64,000 bases of DNA, from NCBI GenBank assembly GCA_027489035.1, contig JAIYAN010000021.1, positions 1 through 64,000 of the forward strand. The letters run 5' to 3'. Shown piece by piece: positions 1-37,488 of this stretch. Both the position numbers and the translations under genes were made by a program. The DNA comes from Chitinophagaceae bacterium. Lineage in GTDB: Bacteria; Bacteroidota; Bacteroidia; Chitinophagales; Chitinophagaceae. Position 1 is the stretch's first letter, and every line of letters begins with the position of its first letter. The notes below the pieces were generated by a model. That model was not told the origin of the DNA. It was given only the letters and a program-made list of their open reading frames with translations, and ran no database searches.

Positions 1-85
<85 letters not shown>

Positions 86-5255: not shown

Positions 5256-5551
5256 TATAATGGATATTTTAAACTTTAGAATATTCAAGCTCCCTTGACC
5301 TATTTGGGAAGAGCTGAGGAACAAGGATCTTTTCGTCTTTGGTCCTTTGCGAGCTTTGCGCGAAACAAAAAATATTCAAAAGTTTTGATGAGTTCAAAAG
5401 GTAGAGAATTTTCGTATGTCATTTTTTTGATAAGAAGGGAGGAAACACGAAGACACGAAGTTTTTATATAAATCAAAGATGTTAAAAAGGTTGGATGCAT
5501 TTCAACAATTAAACCATTAAACATTAAACCAGCGAAGCGATTTAAACCTTA

Positions 5552-10312: not shown

Positions 10313-11069
10313 AGAAAACGAAATAATAAAGCATGATTCATGGGAGGTTTTAAAAAAACACACCGCCGCAAGAATTGCATTGGGTAAAACGGGTGTATCG
10401 ATTCCATCTAATCAAAATTTGTCATTCAAATTGGCGCATGCATTAGCGAGAGATGCTGTTTATGATTTAATAGATAAAAAGGAGCTTCATCATAATCTTG
10501 ATGAGCTTCAACTTCCTTTCCTTTTTTTACAAAGTTGCGCCATTGATAAAAAACAATATTTACAAAGACCTGATTTTGGCAGAAAATTAAATCAACAGTC
10601 AATTGATATCATCAACAAAGAAGATTCAAATATTAGTTATGATATCTGTATAAATATTGCTGATGGATTATCCGCTGATGCTGTCAATAAACATGCTATG
10701 CCATTGATTCATTTATTAATTCCAATGTTGAGAGAAATAAAATATTCAATTGCGCCCATCTGCGTTATTGAGCAAGGTCGTGTAGCCATAAGTGATGAAA
10801 CAGGATATTTATTAAACTCAAAAATGTCAATTATTTTAATTGGCGAACGTCCAGGATTAAGCGCCACAGATAGTTTGGGCGTTTACTTAACCTATAACCC
10901 AAAAGTTGGAAATAACGACGCATTACGAAATTGCATTTCTAACATTAGACCAGAAGGATTGACTTACGAAATTGCTGCACAAAAAACCATAGCGCTTATT
11001 AATGAAGCCATGCGCTTAAAGATGACGGGCGTTTGTTTAAAAGACAACAATAATTTTATAACTAATTAA
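10305..11069 (+). CDS. eutC: Ethanolamine ammonia-lyase, small subunit
   Basis: Small subunit that completes the cobalamin-binding enzyme with EutB. It has 254 residues, a little shorter than the enterobacterial protein. Conserved: SWEVLKKHTAARIALGKTG at the start, ICINIADGLSADAVNKHA in the middle, and LIGERPGLSATDSLGVYLTYNPK near the end. Its stop codon shares the TTAA at 11066-11069 with the stop of the convergent short aldehyde dehydrogenase gene, so the two genes overlap by four bases. Confidence 0.95.
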   Translation: MHKENEIIKHDSWEVLKKHTAARIALGKTGVSIPSNQNLSFKLAHALARDAVYDLIDKKELHHNLDELQLPFLFLQSCAIDKKQYLQRPDFGRKLNQQSIDIINKEDSNISYDICINIADGLSADAVNKHAMPLIHLLIPMLREIKYSIAPICVIEQGRVAISDETGYLLNSKMSIILIGERPGLSATDSLGVYLTYNPKVGNNDALRNCISNIRPEGLTYEIAAQKTIALINEAMRLKMTGVCLKDNNNFITN

Positions 11070-11953
11070 TACCCAGATTTAGATCCGCCAATGTTTTCTA
11101 TTGGATGCCAGGTCGTTTTCACCTCTTGAAAATCGTTTATAAAATATGGTGATTGTGCTTCTTCACTCATCCAATTTTTATTTTTATAAAAAGCAGTTCT
11201 TTTCACATTCAACGCTGCATTTTCCTGAATCAATTTAATATCGTTTGCATTATCTTCTGCAAAACAAACTGCATTTACATCCATGTGATTTGAAAAATGA
11301 GGCAATAACTCAGAAACTTTTCCGGTTAAAATATTTACAACACCACCAGGTAAATCTGAGCTGTTAAGCACTTCAGCAAAAGTTACTGCAGACAATGGTT
11401 TTGTTTCGGAAGCCAATATCACACAAGTATTTCCACCGGCGATTACTGGCGCCATAAGTGATACCAGTCCTATCAATGCATTTTGTTGTGGCGCAATAAT
11501 CGACACCACGCCCATTGGCTCTAATGCAGAAAAATTAAAATGAGATGACGCTACTGGATTGACACTACTGAATATTTGTTGGTATTTATCGCACCACCCA
11601 CTGTAATAAATCAAACGATCAATTGCCAATTCCACTTCGTTTTCAGCTTGCAACTTTTTTGATCCATGAAGCATCAACTCTTCTACAAACTGCAACTTTC
11701 TACCTTCCAACATTTCTGCAATTCGATATAAAATTTGTCCACGATTGAAAGCAGCTCTTGTGCTCCAGCCTCCAAATGCAGTTCTGGCAGCTACTTCAGC
11801 ATCTCTAAAATCTTTTCTAGAGCTCAAGCACACATTCGCAGCCACTTCTCCTTTTGGATTTTTTATTTCATAGGTTCTCCCCGATTCGGTTCTTGGGAAT
11901 TGCCCGTTGATGTAAATTTTGTATGTTTTTAAAACGTTGATTCTAGTAGACAT
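11066..11953 (-). CDS. Short aldehyde dehydrogenase-family protein lacking the catalytic domain
   Basis: At 295 residues this is about 190 shorter than a normal aldehyde dehydrogenase. The N-terminal NAD-binding half is present: YKIYINGQFPRTESGRTYEIKNP, EPMGVVSIIAPQQN, APVIAGGNTCVILASETKPLSA and LPGGVVNILTGKV. The region with the catalytic cysteine and the general-base glutamate is absent. The protein ends in IGGSKSGY, which resembles the GGxKxSGxG motif near the C-terminus of full-length enzymes, so this looks like an internal deletion within the family. The lack of catalytic residues suggests a structural or regulatory partner for the full enzyme encoded upstream, as in two-module ALDH16 proteins. 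That comparison is inference. Confidence 0.82.
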   Translation of the reverse strand: MSTRINVLKTYKIYINGQFPRTESGRTYEIKNPKGEVAANVCLSSRKDFRDAEVAARTAFGGWSTRAAFNRGQILYRIAEMLEGRKLQFVEELMLHGSKKLQAENEVELAIDRLIYYSGWCDKYQQIFSSVNPVASSHFNFSALEPMGVVSIIAPQQNALIGLVSLMAPVIAGGNTCVILASETKPLSAVTFAEVLNSSDLPGGVVNILTGKVSELLPHFSNHMDVNAVCFAEDNANDIKLIQENAALNVKRTAFYKNKNWMSEEAQSPYFINDFQEVKTTWHPIENIGGSKSGY

Positions 11954-11965
11954 GTTTAACGGTTT

Positions 11966-12045
11966 AAGGCGCTTTGCTGGTTTAAGGGTTTAATTCGCTT
12001 CGCTGGTTTAAGGGTTTAATGGTTTAATTTGCTGCGCTGGTTTAA
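11966..12045 (-). repeat. Three tandem CCAGCGAAGCG-family units
   Basis: Three units ending in GCTGGTTTAA lie at 11970-11985, 11996-12011 and 12031-12045. They are inverted relative to the two units at 12611-12643 on the other side of the first four-helix-bundle gene. The family also occurs at 5524, 15997 and 37417. Confidence 0.75.
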
Positions 12046-12057
12046 TGGTGTATTGGT

Positions 12058-12108
12058 TTTTTACTTTTTACTTTTTACTTTTTACTTTTTACTTTTTATT
12101 TTTTATTT
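12058..12108. repeat. (TTTTTAC)n short tandem repeat
   Basis: Seven-base units TTTTTAC repeat about six times, just downstream of the four-helix-bundle stop codon. Similar short runs occur near 30256-30275 and 34815-34840. Confidence 0.7.
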
Positions 12109-12115
12109 TATCAAC

Positions 12116-12508
12116 TTACTCTTTTTTTCTAACTCCATCTATTTTAGTTTTTTTTAAATACAACATTAACCCATAAATCATTGCGCTTATTCTTGAAACC
12201 AATTTTAGAAGTTCGTCAAATTGTTGCTGTTCGATGTATTTTCTATCAAACGCTCTATATAATTGAGATCTAAGTTCTCCGCAACTACCTTTTGAATATC
12301 CTAAAAAAACAATAAATTCATTTCTTGTCCCTCGCTCAAATCCTTCTGCTATATTGTCCATTATTGAACCTGATGACCCTTCTATTTGATTTATCAATCT
12401 AAAATTATGTTCAAATTTTCTATCTCGTATAATACTGCCGATTGTTTTATTCAAAGCCCTGCTTTCTTTCCAAACATCCAAATCTTCAAATCTTTTTATT
12501 GTAGACAT
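12116..12508 (-). CDS. Four-helix-bundle protein (23S rRNA intervening-sequence family), copy 1
   Basis: This 130-residue protein has the family's typical start, TIKRFEDLDVWKESRALNK, and the core EGSSGSIMDNIAEGFERG...EFIVFLGYSKGSCGELRSQ. Members occur in 23S rRNA intervening sequences and as free-standing genes in Bacteroidota, with no settled biochemical role. It lies between the two aldehyde dehydrogenase genes with 137 and 162 bases of repeat-rich spacer on its sides, so it probably inserted into an older operon. A close relative is at 14236-14624. Confidence 0.87.
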   Translation of the reverse strand: MSTIKRFEDLDVWKESRALNKTIGSIIRDRKFEHNFRLINQIEGSSGSIMDNIAEGFERGTRNEFIVFLGYSKGSCGELRSQLYRAFDRKYIEQQQFDELLKLVSRISAMIYGLMLYLKKTKIDGVRKKE

Positions 12509-12610
12509 TTTTTTATTTCAAAATTCCAAATGTCTTCAAAAAAATCAATGTGAAAAACAACAACTTCTAACCGTTTTTTCAACCCCTTCTTTGCTTCAAT
12601 CATTCAACCC

Positions 12611-12643
12611 TTAAACCAGCTTGCGTATTAAACCAGCGAAGCG
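12611..12643 (+). repeat. Two tandem CCAGCGAAGCG-family units
   Basis: TTAAACCAGCTTGCGT (12611-12626) and TTAAACCAGCGAAGCG (12628-12643) end two bases before the stop codon of the full-length aldehyde dehydrogenase gene. They are inverted relative to the three units at 11970-12045, so the first four-helix-bundle gene lies between inverted repeats. Confidence 0.75.
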
Positions 12644-12645
12644 CA

Positions 12646-14118
12646 TCAAACCTCCACATACCCCCCCAATCCATGCAATCCGCCTTCTCTTCCAAAACCA
12701 CTTTCTTTGTAACCACCGAATGGTGAAGTAGGATCGAATTTGTTATACGTATTTGCCCAAATTACACCTGCTCTTAATTTGGAAGTCATGTTGAATATTT
12801 TAGATCCTTTATCTGTCCATACGCCGGCCGATAAACCAAACGCTGTATTGTTGGCTTTTTCAATGGCTTCATCGATGGTTCTGAATGTTTGGATGGCTAA
12901 TACTGGACCGAAAATTTCTTCTTGTGCAATGCGATGCGATTGAGCCACGTTTGTAAAAATGGTTGGCTTACAATAAAATCCTTTTTTAGGCAAGGCACAT
13001 GAAGATTGAAAAATTTCAGAACCTTCTTGCTGACCAATTTTCAAATAATTATTGATGACATCTAATTGTTGTTTGGAATTTATCGCTCCTATATCTGTAT
13101 TCTTATCCATTGGATTACCAACGATAAGTGTTTCGATTCTGTCTTTTAATTTTTGCAAAACCAATTTATACACCGATTCTTGTACAAACAATCTAGAGCC
13201 AGCACAACATACGTGACCTTGATTGAAGAAAATACCATTTATAATTCCTTCGACTGCTTGATCAATTGGGGCATCTTCAAATATGATGTTTGCTGCTTTT
13301 CCACCCAATTCGAGTGTGGCTTTTTTATTGGTTCCGGCAATAGATTTTTGAATAATTTTTCCCACTTCTGTAGATCCAGTAAAAGCAATTTTGTTTATGC
13401 CTGGATGGTTCACCAATTCAGCGCCTGTATTTCCAGCACCTGTTATGATATTCACCACACCAGGAGGCAAATCAGCTTCCTGAAAAATCTCTGCTAATTT
13501 CAATGCCGTTAAAGAAGTATTTTCTGCTGGTTTTAACACCACCGTATTCCCTGTGGCTAATGCTGGTGCAATTTTCCAAGCTGCCATCAACAGTGGAAAA
13601 TTCCAAGGGATTATTTGTCCGGCTACACCTAGCGGCTTTGGATTTCTATTTGGAAATGCATATTCTAATTTATCTGCCCATCCCGCGTTATAAAAAAAAT
13701 GATTTGCTGCTGCAGGAATATCAAAATCACGACTTTCTTTAATTGGCTTGCCACCATCTAACGTTTCAATAACCGCCAATTCTCTGGCTTTTTCTTGAAT
13801 GATTCTGGAGATCCGGAAAATATATTTCGCCCTTTCTTTTGCAGGTAATTTCTTCCATACTTTATCGTAGGCATTTCTTGCTGCTACCACCGCTTTATCC
13901 ACATCTGCTTTATTAGCTAATGCAATAGAAGACAACTTTTCCTCCGTAGCTGGATTTATGGTATCGAAATATTTTTTTGAGCTTGGTTTTTCAAACTTCC
14001 CATTTATAAACAACTCATATCGATCCGCAATCTTTGCAATAGCAGCACTTTCCGGAGCAGGGTCAAGGTTACGAGCGCTGTCGAATTTGAGTTTGAGGGT
14101 GTTTTTTGATTTGGCCAT
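12646..14118 (-). CDS. NAD-dependent aldehyde dehydrogenase
   Basis: Full-length, 490-residue aldehyde dehydrogenase. Substrate and cofactor motifs are intact: IIPWNFPLLMAAWKIAPALATGN (about 168-190), AFTGSTEVGK (about 245), the general-base glutamate in LELGGKAANIIF, the catalytic cysteine in FFNQGHVCCAGSR (about 300), EIFGPVLAI and FGGYKESGFGREGG. It oxidises an aldehyde to the acid. Downstream of deoC and facing eutBC, acetaldehyde is the likely substrate (inferred from context). Repeat islands abut both ends of the gene. Confidence 0.93.
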   Translation of the reverse strand: MAKSKNTLKLKFDSARNLDPAPESAAIAKIADRYELFINGKFEKPSSKKYFDTINPATEEKLSSIALANKADVDKAVVAARNAYDKVWKKLPAKERAKYIFRISRIIQEKARELAVIETLDGGKPIKESRDFDIPAAANHFFYNAGWADKLEYAFPNRNPKPLGVAGQIIPWNFPLLMAAWKIAPALATGNTVVLKPAENTSLTALKLAEIFQEADLPPGVVNIITGAGNTGAELVNHPGINKIAFTGSTEVGKIIQKSIAGTNKKATLELGGKAANIIFEDAPIDQAVEGIINGIFFNQGHVCCAGSRLFVQESVYKLVLQKLKDRIETLIVGNPMDKNTDIGAINSKQQLDVINNYLKIGQQEGSEIFQSSCALPKKGFYCKPTIFTNVAQSHRIAQEEIFGPVLAIQTFRTIDEAIEKANNTAFGLSAGVWTDKGSKIFNMTSKLRAGVIWANTYNKFDPTSPFGGYKESGFGREGGLHGLGGYVEV

Positions 14119-14197
14119 TATATAGAGGTTTGAGAGGTTTGTGAGGTTTATGAGGTTTGTGAGGTTTATGAGGTTTCACGTGTTGAAAATTTTCAAC
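14112..14197 (+). repeat. GAGGTTTNTGAG tandem units and palindrome, left of copy 2
   Basis: Five or six units of the type GAGGTTTGTGAGGTTTATGA run from 14112 to 14176, followed by the palindrome GTTGAAAATTTTCAAC (14182-14197). The same two elements reappear in inverted order and orientation at 14738-14817, on the other side of the second four-helix-bundle gene. Confidence 0.75.
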
Positions 14198-14235
14198 CTA
14201 TGAAAAGTTTTTTGTTGTTTTTGTTGTTTAGGTGG

Positions 14236-14624
14236 TTATTTAAATTTCACGCCTTTGATTTCTGATGTTTTTAAGTAGTTTATTAGTTTTGAAATTAAAT
14301 AATTTATTCTTAAACATTTATCATTTATTTCTTCAAATTCACTTTGAATAATGTATTCAGCATCTAAAGCCCTGTATGATTGCGACCTTAGTTCTGCACA
14401 AGAACCTTTTGCATAATAAAGAAACAAAATGAATTCTTTATTCCCACCACGATCAAATCCCTCAGCTATATTATCCATAATAGAACCTGCAGAACCTTCA
14501 ATTTGGTTAATTAATCTAAAATTATGCTCGAAACGCTTTTGCTTGATTAAATTCCTCATGAATTTATTTAGCGATCTTGCTTCTTGCCAACATAGAATAT
14601 CTTCAAATTTTTTATTGTTGCCAT
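14236..14624 (-). pseudogene. Four-helix-bundle protein, copy 2, with a 5' frameshift
   Basis: An intact reading frame from an internal ATG at 14559 encodes 107 residues closely matching copy 1 (RFEHNFRLINQIEGSAGS, IMDNIAEGFDRG, EFILFLYYAKGSCAELRSQ). The natural start is upstream: ATG at 14624 reads MATIKNLK and stops after 18 codons. Adding one A to the run of six (14608-14613) would give MATIKKFEDILCWQEARSL and join the frames, matching copy 1's start. So this is a one-base deletion, a sequencing error in a homopolymer, or a slippage site. It lies between deoC and the full-length aldehyde dehydrogenase gene. Confidence 0.8.
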
Positions 14625-14737
14625 TTTAATAAAAAACAAACCTATTAAACATGTCACAAAAACTGAAAAAATATTACTTAAGAATATTTAGTAAAATTTT
14701 CAAATTGATATTCATACATCATAAACTCATTTTCATT

Positions 14738-14817
14738 GGTTGAATATTTTCAACCCCTACCAAAATCCCCAACCTCATAAACGTCTCAAACATCAAAAAC
14801 CTCTCAAACCTCTCTCT
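14738..14817 (-). repeat. Palindrome and CTCAAACCTC-type units, right of copy 2
   Basis: The palindrome GGTTGAATATTTTCAACC (14738-14755) is followed by CCTCATAAACGTCTCAAACA-type units (14769-14817) up to the deoC stop codon. Read on the minus strand these are the GAGGTTTNTGAG family, so they invert the array at 14112-14197. Confidence 0.72.
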
Positions 14818-14819
14818 CC

Positions 14820-15725
14820 CTAGTCATTCGAAAAATAATCCCCCGATTGATACAACCCTGTTTTTTGTTTCATCAATTGCATTAAAATATCATTGGCTAA
14901 ACTGCTGGCACCAAATCTAAACCATTCATTGTTCATCCAATCTTCGCCCAATACTTCGTTTAACATTACTAGATAGTGTAAAGCTAATTTTGCTTTTGAA
15001 ATACCACCGGCTGGTTTCATGGCGATTTTTTTGCCGGTTTTGTAATAGAAGTCTCTAATAGCTTCTAGCATTACCAACGTTACTGGCATTGTAGCGGCAG
15101 GTTGAATTTTTCCGGTAGAGGTTTTGATAAAATCGGCGCCTGCATACATGGCAATATCACTCGCTCTGCGCACATTATCTAACGAACCCAATTCGCCTGT
15201 TTCTAAAATCACTTTTAAACGAACTTCGCCACACAATTCTTTAATGGCGGCTATTTCGTCATAAACAAAATTGTATTCGCCTTGATGAAATTTACCTCTT
15301 GATATCACCATATCTATTTCATCTGCACCTTGAGCAATGGCAAATCTGGTATCTTCTTTTTTTACTTTCAATGTGGATTGTCCGCTGGGAAATGCGGTTG
15401 CAACAGAAGCCACTTTTATTCCTGAATCACCTAATGCTTTTTTGGCTATACCTACCATAGATGGATATACGCAGATTGCTGCAACGGTTGGTAGTCCTGG
15501 GTATGCATCAAGTAAATGCATCGCTTTGTAACAAAGTTGTTTTACTTTCCCTTCGGTATCTTTTCCTTCGAGTGTAGTTAAATCAATCATATTTAATGCA
15601 AGCATCAAACCATTTAATTTGGTTTCGCCTTTCAAGCTTCTTTTGGTAAAACGAGAAGCACGTTCTTCTACCCCAACCTGATCTATTTTGGGGGTGGCTG
15701 TAAAATCTGGAATTATATCGAACAT
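14820..15725 (-). CDS. deoC: Deoxyribose-phosphate aldolase
   Basis: Cleaves 2-deoxyribose 5-phosphate to acetaldehyde and glyceraldehyde 3-phosphate, the last step of deoxynucleoside catabolism. It has 301 residues. The class I aldolase motifs are DEIDMVISRGKF, LKVILETGEL, the Schiff-base lysine in ADFIKTSTGK and AMKPAGGISK near the C-terminus. It belongs to the longer DeoC type (enterobacterial forms are about 259 residues). It starts a leftward gene series whose next intact enzyme is an aldehyde dehydrogenase that could consume its acetaldehyde. Confidence 0.94.
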   Translation of the reverse strand: MFDIIPDFTATPKIDQVGVEERASRFTKRSLKGETKLNGLMLALNMIDLTTLEGKDTEGKVKQLCYKAMHLLDAYPGLPTVAAICVYPSMVGIAKKALGDSGIKVASVATAFPSGQSTLKVKKEDTRFAIAQGADEIDMVISRGKFHQGEYNFVYDEIAAIKELCGEVRLKVILETGELGSLDNVRRASDIAMYAGADFIKTSTGKIQPAATMPVTLVMLEAIRDFYYKTGKKIAMKPAGGISKAKLALHYLVMLNEVLGEDWMNNEWFRFGASSLANDILMQLMKQKTGLYQSGDYFSND

Positions 15726-16254
15726 TGTTTTGAAGGTTAGGGAGTGAAGTTAGGGAATTTTTAAAAACAGACCCCTAAATCCCCCAAGGGGAAGCTGGAA
15801 TTTCCATTTATTAGCAGTTTGTAATTTTCAAAAGTATGTGCGATTTTTTATGTCACCCCGCTGGGGCTTTATTTCATTATCAAACAATTCTAGTGATATG
15901 ACACCCCGCTGGGGCTATTGTGTGCACATCATTTTTTGAATGCTCAAACTCCCTTCACCTTTTGGGGGAAGGGTTGGGAATTGGGGCTTTAAACCATTAA
16001 ACCAGCGAAGTGCATTAAACCAACAAAGTGATTTAAACTTAAATTCAAAAACTCAAAAGGTTCAATAAGCCAAAATCGGAAATCACTTCCCAACCTCTTG
16101 AACTTATTGAACCTTTTGAACATTTTGTACGGGTTGAAAATGTTAAACCCCTACAACCTCATAAACATCACAAACCTCAAGGGTTGAAAATGTTCAACCC
16201 CTACAACGTCACAAACCTCAAAAACATCAAAAACCTCCCAAACCTCTTCCTCCC
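15726..16254. repeat. Repeat island 4 (gene-free)
   Basis: This 529-base stretch between deoC and the lolA-like gene holds no gene. It contains two CACCCCGCTGGGGCT units (15854-15868 and 15902-15916), two TTAAACCAGCGAAGTG-family units (15997-16012 and 16014-16030), hairpin element copy A (16052-16120), two GGGTTGAA palindromes (16131-16150 and 16181-16200) and CCTCATAAACATCACAAACC-type units (16154-16180 and 16204-16250), which run up to the stop codon of the next gene. Confidence 0.75.
16052..16120 (+). repeat. Dispersed hairpin element, copy A
   Basis: Perfect 17-base arms TCAAAAGGTTCAATAAG (16053-16069) and CTTATTGAACCTTTTGA (16103-16119) flank a 33-base loop. Copy B at 5191-5255 is the same element inverted, with loop sequence also conserved. 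It resembles bacterial REP- or MITE-like intergenic hairpins. Confidence 0.75.
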
Positions 16255-37286: not shown

Positions 37287-37488
37287 TTATTTTAAATGTT
37301 TGGGGTTTGGGGTTTGGTGTTTGGGGTTTGGTGTTTGGGGTTTGGTGTTTGGTGTTTCGCGCAAAGTTCGCAAAGGAGCAAGGTGCGTAAAGGTAGAACA
37401 CTTCTACCTTAAACCATTAAACCAGCGAAGCGAATTAAACACTTTCAGACCTTTTGTAAGGGTTGAAAATTTTCAACCCCTACAACTC
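37287..37488. repeat. Repeat island 5 between ftsK and pth
   Basis: A minisatellite of 14-base units TTTGGGGTTTGGTG runs from about 37299 to 37354, with four GGGG runs at 37302, 37309, 37323 and 37337. Then come GTTTCGCGCAAAGTTCGC (37354-37371, inverted relative to 5345-5366), TTAAACCAGCGAAGCG (37417-37432) and the perfect palindrome GGGTTGAAAATTTTCAACCC (37460-37479). The island has no gene. Confidence 0.75.

Follow-up and report, generated by a model that had tools for sequence, protein, structure and literature searches.

What is a small four-helix-bundle gene bounded by inverted repeats doing between the protein-coding genes of an operon? The question arises in the window, the whole 64,000-nucleotide stretch of a Chitinophagaceae contig analyzed here, where such a gene (S23 copy 1) separates two aldehyde dehydrogenase (ALDH) genes, and for which a first-pass annotation had proposed a small mobile cassette related to the hairpin-framed intervening sequences (IVSs) of 23S rRNA. 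A second S23 gene (copy 2) lies in the same operon. We think it probable that the pair are hairpin-framed cassettes akin to 23S rRNA IVSs, seated in junctions between protein genes. The features on which the argument turns, by window position, are these:

5524–5539, minus strand: dispersed 16-bp unit, with none of the genome's four S23 genes nearby
11066–11953, minus strand: short ALDH, 295 aa, downstream of slot A
11954–12059, no strand assigned: downstream inverted arm of copy 1, an array of GGTTTAA-type units plus CGCTTCGCTGG; pairs best over 11987–12027
12058–12109, no strand assigned: heptamer array TTTTTAC x7.4, on one side only, between the S23 stop and the arm
12116–12508, minus strand: S23 copy 1 (slot A), four-helix-bundle gene, intact, 130 aa; PF05635, TIGR02436
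12509–12594, minus strand: leader of copy 1, from arm to S23 start; resembles the leaders of L094 and L095 (by eye), which are homologous to each other
12595–12652, no strand assigned: inverted arm upstream of copy 1; pairs best over 12595–12634
12646–14118, minus strand: ALDH, 490 aa, between slots A and B; orthologues found
14124–14206, no strand assigned: inverted arm downstream of copy 2, built of 9-nt units GAGGTTTGT
14236–14625, minus strand: S23 copy 2 (slot B), whose ATG is not in frame with the remainder of the gene
14730–14813, no strand assigned: inverted arm upstream of copy 2, built of 9-nt units AACCTCTCA
14820–15725, minus strand: deoC, upstream of slot B; TIGR00126, 177 bits (cut-off 117)
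15988–16032, no strand assigned: S23-less array next to deoC, of the unit family of the copy 1 arms
37417–37432, minus strand: dispersed 16-bp unit, with none of the genome's four S23 genes nearby

Two S23 genes in a deoC operon

The operon runs deoC, S23 copy 2, ALDH, S23 copy 1, short ALDH, in agreement with the earlier description of copy 1 as splitting a deoC–ALDH–ALDH series. The four-helix-bundle gene is real: in profile searches copy 1 scored 109 bits against PF05635 (cut-off 33.8) and 99 bits against TIGR02436, its predicted structure (pLDDT 89.6) has 2gsc as top fold match, and comparison with L094 gave a dN/dS of 0.10 at a dS of 1.07. Copy 2 either is frameshifted near its start, where a run of six A adjoins the ATG, or starts at 14559 to encode 107 aa. 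Between the arms of the window copies S23 is the sole gene among open reading frames of at least 80 aa, with no transposase or recombinase; copy 1 had no match in a phage collection, and neither copy had one in PHROGs. The window also carries one end of a 16S rRNA gene (1–85, minus strand).

The two sides of copy 1 are complementary over ~40 nt (11987–12027 with 12595–12634), and its arms are paired in both the minimum-energy and the centroid RNA folds. Copy 2, whose unit is a different 9-nt sequence, is framed more strongly; RNA folds of both window copies pair the arms (z −5.3 and −5.0, 20 shuffles each). The three units resembling CGCTTCGCTGGTTTAA that had been described on one side of copy 1 were recovered at no more than two mismatches (11970, one mismatch; 11996, none; 12030, two). 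Two inverted units had been placed at 12611–12643 on the other side; that at 12628–12643 is an exact inverse, whereas the one beginning at 12611 is only about half conserved.

The tie between this 16-bp repeat and the gene did not survive, since the repeat flanks many unrelated places, an outcome that covers half of what the first-pass annotation had named as refuting its idea. The window holds 7 matches to the pattern at two or fewer mismatches (0.02 expected) and the genome 129 sites (66 forward, 63 reverse) at no more than one mismatch in 15, compared with 0 for the reversed control; most of these window-type repeats occur without S23. Because it forms a genome-wide family, the 16-bp unit does not belong to the S23 gene, and we rejected it as a marker of that gene. 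The dispersed units of the window genome could instead represent an S23-less form of the cassette. Beside deoC, at 15850–15920, lie two copies of a short caccccgctggggct repeat, perhaps another dispersed family.

Framing of S23 genes and change of the arm units

Framing was scored by local alignment of the upstream flank to the reverse complement of the downstream flank relative to shuffles, and a gene was called framed at z over 4. The window genome (3.04 Mb in 26 contigs) carries four S23 genes, and with flanking windows of 250 nt all 4/4 were framed (z 25.7, 14.0, 8.4 and 8.1), the C1 copy giving a z of only 3.4 when the test was restricted to its spacers. On the window's own contig (322 kb), where 6/136 genes tested were framed, the two S23 genes ranked first and fourth.

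Inverted arrays around S23 genes are the rule. Among 80 named Bacteroidota loci, 22 of which lie in the same deoC operon as in the window, 53/66 S23 genes were framed versus 12/290 other genes. A set of relatives drawn mostly by the Pfam model gave 44/61 versus 11/247 against shuffles and 39/61 versus 9/247 against a first-order Markov null. This set took in 91 loci, in 83 of which a local S23 profile found 88 S23 genes, 76 of them scored; identical copies, S23 genes less than 60 nt from a locus end and controls less than 250 nt from an end were left out, and the spacer-limited test did not score spacers under 20 nt. A phylum-wide sample (30 loci from 30 genomes) yielded 13/25 versus 1/38. When the sets were pooled and deduplicated anew (183/186 S23 genes and 856/873 controls kept), 99/131 S23 genes and 3/179 other small genes with spacers of at least 30 nt were framed, and 79/109 S23 genes once the deoC-operon loci were removed. 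By the z test, 42/150 pooled S23 genes and 12/25 in the phylum sample had no arms. The direct-orientation control was lower (S23 10/80, 5/76 and 2/30; other genes 21/448, 9/378 and 1/47). Several of the framed control genes adjoin S23 in the same operon, and 5/37 such codirectional genes were framed. A link to ALDH operons was considered and rejected: ALDH accounts for 18/147 neighbours, from a few conserved sites, and S23 genes not adjoining ALDH were still framed in 37/52 cases.

These frequencies bear on one alternative, that the arrays are slippage-prone spacer filler, with inverted arms made by template switching and S23 merely lying in long non-coding spacers. The 16-bp unit is indeed dispersed, and hairpins were found in 14/115 S23-free codirectional spacers. 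Yet among genes with same-strand neighbours and similar spacer length, 33/41 S23 genes were framed as opposed to 1/42 genes away from S23 (p = 2e-14), and the low count for other small genes points the same way. We return to this alternative with the empty sites below.

The arms have a median length of 29–31 nt and ~86% identity, with more G than C in the 5′ arm in 50/53 and 44/50 cases. Tandem arrays were found in 69/91 framed arms of at least 22 nt (3.4 in shuffles), and the best period of the 91 was 7 or 14 in 53, 9 in 18 and 8 in 14; L111, L098 and L103, the same S23 loci as L233, L221 and L202, were excluded from these and the slot counts. Units vary even within one genome, where four S23 copies have four arm units (GAGGTTTGT; GGTTTAA with CGCTTCGCTGG; AAAAAGT; GTTTGGG), measuring 8/26 nt in copy 1, 9 nt in copy 2 and 7 nt in the C1 and C3 copies. 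The unit also changes between orthologous loci while pairing is retained, both arms of each locus remaining complementary. Own partners accordingly scored above swapped ones in slot A (37.1 versus 23.8, n = 17, p = 0.0002), in slot B (53.7 versus 31.9, n = 10, p = 0.0002) and at the RidA site (45.8 versus 30.2, n = 6, p = 0.012); at the suf (n = 5, p = 0.08) and rlmB (n = 5, p = 0.19) sites the difference did not reach significance, and the own partner was the best of its row in only 6/17 (slot A) and 4/10 (slot B). Template switching, as the filler reading supposes, would also yield such own-arm matching.

Five genomes encode an in-frame fusion of S23 with a protein that by eye resembles RidA, and the linker is the translated arm. 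These fusions (L247, L237, L224, L208, L212) lie mostly beside ALDH and their linker differs between species; L187, in the window genome, is an S23–RidA fusion split by a TAG. Three loci from Bacteroidota MAGs (L140, L141, L144) have S23 genes 98–99.5% identical within surrounding blocks of 82–93%, and their unusual arms, direct in two (by eye) or of reversed polarity, led us to keep them out of the proof. In L284, a framed S23 gene is antisense to both neighbours, so that excision from host mRNA would there act on an antisense hairpin.

Filled and empty junctions

Framed S23 genes occur widely, across several phyla. On cyanobacterial plasmids the arms are inverted arrays of GGGAAAA, AGGTGAC, AGGGAGT and AGGGTGT units, and 10/15 S23 genes were framed in a sample that holds related pairs (L290/L291, L294/L295). 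This fraction is likely low, because arms running into the S23 3′ end escape the z test (L308, z −0.4; L310, z 0.0), probably also in L294, L295 and L299, each of which matches 98–100% of the length of the L308 unit. Adding Azospirillum and Gemmatirosa gave 12/17, versus 5/90 annotated neighbours, with the Gemmatirosa flank scoring in the direct control as well (z 8.4).

These plasmids present the same junction with and without the unit. In a Nostoc plasmid operon, Y–Z–W, 3 nt separate the Y stop from the Z start in L282, L306 and L311, while in L308, L310 and L309 the junction holds an arm–S23–arm unit of 420, 420 and 602 nt, respectively, with arms of CAGAAGT/CAGGAGT heptamers; S23 is the only annotated gene of the 420-nt unit. 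The L308 and L310 units are identical at 416/420 positions within flanks of 92.5 and 90.8% identity, and the L308 and L309 units at 413/420 within flanks of 90.2 and 91.1%. Since the unit is more alike than its flanks, it either spread after the plasmids parted or was converted. The Z/W junction carries a unit (~500 nt) in L282 only, at a TAATG stop/start overlap, with a different S23, which shares 47/115 aa with the L308 protein; by annotation, this junction ranges from a 1-nt overlap to a 3-nt gap in L306 and L308–L311. Likewise, a Nostoc C052 unit of 477–486 nt occupies a site that measures 36–42 nt in two C057 plasmids, and a Calothrix unit of 517–518 nt one that measures 10–11 nt in Tolypothrix and Aulosira.

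It had been suggested that four-helix-bundle genes of Bacteroidota be examined for inverted repeats or target duplications at their edges. Inverted arms proved common, as the pooled counts attest, but no consistent target duplication was found at the cyanobacterial sites: two of them show short repeats (ATG; TTCTA, by eye) that the start and stop codons alone might impose, and at others the unit stands in place of 10–42 nt. An identical S23 pair in Calothrix NIES-22 was rejected as a case of unit movement, as both genes belong to a 3.6-kb block that two plasmids have in common (97.5%). S23 units also sit inside plasmid CRISPR operons (L283, L292 (cas6 / cas4), L293 (cas10 / cmr3)), at the same junction in two cyanobacterial genera.

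Arms of this kind also occur without the gene. In L309 an exact insertion of 182 nt interrupts the S23 gene; the inserted sequence is itself a hairpin (z 12.0) that has the same arm units but lacks S23. Across 32 cyanobacterial plasmid records, counting its own, this hairpin has matches at 46 places, and at least 80% of its length is matched in 14 records; 24 of the 30 match places listed are without a listed gene, in gene tables that are incomplete. In Trichormus, parts of the hairpin match an S23 unit in two pieces at ~95–96%, and in L307 the arms were apparently kept (by eye) around a loop of ~150 nt without S23.

The 182-nt hairpin, together with the fact that S23-less copies far outnumber S23-bearing ones, could mean that the arms are an independent mobile repeat, MITE- or STRR-like and moved by some transposase, in which S23 is a trapped passenger. 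We consider this unlikely: one protein family recurs within unrelated arm units in Bacteroidota and Cyanobacteriota, and is framed also in one Pseudomonadota (rRNA) and one Gemmatimonadota locus, while S23 is the only sizeable gene found inside the window arms and the 420-nt unit. An S23-bearing cassette with S23-less derivatives remains the reading we prefer.

The mobility first proposed for copy 1 is partly supported: in cyanobacterial plasmids the cassette looks like an exact insertion unit, whereas the window copy is mainly inherited with its operon. Comparison with relatives, as had been suggested, did reveal empty sites. Among 26 ALDH loci (own genome included), slot A (ALDH/ALDH) was visible in 22, filled in 7 and empty in 15, and slot B (deoC/ALDH) was visible in 23 and filled in 2; the nearest relative (ALDH 99% identical) has slot A empty, with a spacer of 75 nt. 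Hairpins were present in 6/7 filled slot A spacers but in 0/12 testable empty ones. This last comparison, and the cyanobacterial empty junction of 3 nt into which the arms come with S23, make spacer filler a rather improbable account, although 4/17 testable empty slot B spacers do contain a hairpin.

In the S23 tree, the deoC-operon genes form one clade of 29 (100/98) within which slots A and B are largely separate; the clade includes two genes outside these slots (L097, L095_3238), and the slot A S23 of L048 (64% to copy 2, 54% to copy 1) was left out. One duplication is visible in a Chitinophagaceae-like MAG (L094/L095), where an S23 unit in slot A and another next to deoC have arms, leader and gene in common (744 nt, 83%). 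The CALPIT02 contigs L094 and L095, which carry these Chitinophagaceae-like operons, are labelled Streptomyces griseus, a label that looks wrong. S23 is under purifying selection (dN/dS 0.03–0.11 in 8/8 pairs; dS above 1 in 4, some saturated), and its loss goes on, since the ATG of copy 2 is out of frame and the C3 copy has an internal TAG. Because the slot A clade mostly stays in the same operon, the patchiness of the window copy is mainly loss. The window cassettes thus appear to be mainly old residents, inherited with the operon, at times duplicated locally and often lost.

Such residence might also suggest that S23 is an ordinary operon gene regulating its neighbours, with the arms as a binding site or attenuator and no mobility. 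Purifying selection, the locus-faithful groups of slots A and B and the in-frame RidA fusions would fit, as would the finding that both neighbours share the S23 strand for 79% of 76 S23 genes versus 46% of 378 controls. The neighbours themselves are diverse, however (ALDH, cas, conjugation and ribonucleotide reductase genes; by eye also rml, atp and suf), presence is patchy (as in slot A), and the cyanobacterial unit is 99% identical within flanks of 91–93%. We give this account little credence, and continue with the cassette.

Probable kinship with 23S rRNA intervening sequences

The likeness to hairpin-framed IVSs that the first-pass annotation had pointed to is supported by the recurrence of gene plus inverted arms, and by Azospirillum lipoferum (AZO_p2), in which an S23 gene inside the 23S rRNA gene, a true IVS, has inverted heptamer arms and is built alike. 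In Coxiella, the IVS has a stem of 28 bp, a run of three heptamers precedes S23, and RNase III does the cutting (PMC4990558). Like the S23-encoding IVSs of Coxiella, Leptospira and Azospirillum, the cassettes are patchily distributed, measure a few hundred nucleotides, carry the S23 frame in the loop and have a stem of ~30 bp made from terminal inverted repeats; heptamer units, as in the Azospirillum IVS, build many of the arms but not those of window copies 1 and 2. They differ in being seated between protein genes, in units that vary by locus, and in the purifying selection on S23 in every pair compared. Counting against our reading, the S23p of Coxiella is considered not to be produced (PMC4990558). 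No 23S rRNA match was found at either window S23 gene, for which reason we do not file the cassettes as 23S rRNA IVSs; rRNA matches were likewise found in 0/30 other Bacteroidota S23 loci scanned. On the sequence evidence, S23 hairpin units have the look of mobile hairpins of the IVS type seated outside rRNA.

The STRR sequences of cyanobacteria are short tandem heptamers, intergenic and lineage-specific, without known mechanism. The TAACTGA repeats of Beggiatoaceae are described as direct in orientation, with one indirect set among 169, and S23 goes unmentioned in the accessible part of that report (PMC4679880). Both resemble the arms described here in their tandem 7-nt units, intergenic position and lineage specificity; unlike the TAACTGA repeats, the present units are arranged as inverted pairs that flank S23 or build hairpins lacking it. 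MITEs and REP elements are also short, dispersed, non-coding hairpins with matched ends, but the S23 arms are arrays with no fixed terminal sequence, and no partner transposase was identified. The Avd protein of diversity-generating retroelements shares the four-helix fold (4dwl, TM 0.73 by query length, E 0.11), with an identity of 7–8% to the 4dwl chains and, in contrast to Avd, no reverse transcriptase beside S23; the window genome has two RVT_1 matches, both in one 554-aa frame on another contig (C8). In the open-access literature, outside which most subscription papers lie, and including the accessible parts of PMC10053308 and PMC10910872, no link of S23 to arrays beyond rRNA was found.

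The cassette may be pictured as arm, leader, S23 gene and arm, in which the arms are complementary tandem arrays, usually of 7–9-nt units. The arms would pair in the transcript and loop out the insert, and RNase III, whose gene is present in the window genome, would probably cut the stem as it does in rRNA. Looping out would make the insert tolerable between co-transcribed genes. The S23 protein, cited as a homopentamer (PMC4990558), could as a ring (2gsc; Avd fold 4dwl, E 0.11) bind the stem or help its movement.

A broader and distinctly more speculative reading is that S23 hairpins are a mobile-element class of their own without a recognised recombinase, combining an Avd-like ring with self-complementary arrays and changing its arms as it moves, perhaps by way of a hairpin RNA and a reverse transcriptase of the host. 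The rRNA IVSs would then be the best-known sites, and many of the short tandem (heptamer) repeats so far unexplained in cyanobacteria and Bacteroidota might be S23-less derivatives. The role of S23 in rRNA IVSs and the origin of scattered short tandem units become one testable question. Given that PF05635 is present in 157/198 sampled Bacteroidota genomes, an unrecognised mobile hairpin may occupy many core-gene operons, where it may be co-transcribed with core genes and mistaken for an ordinary small gene.
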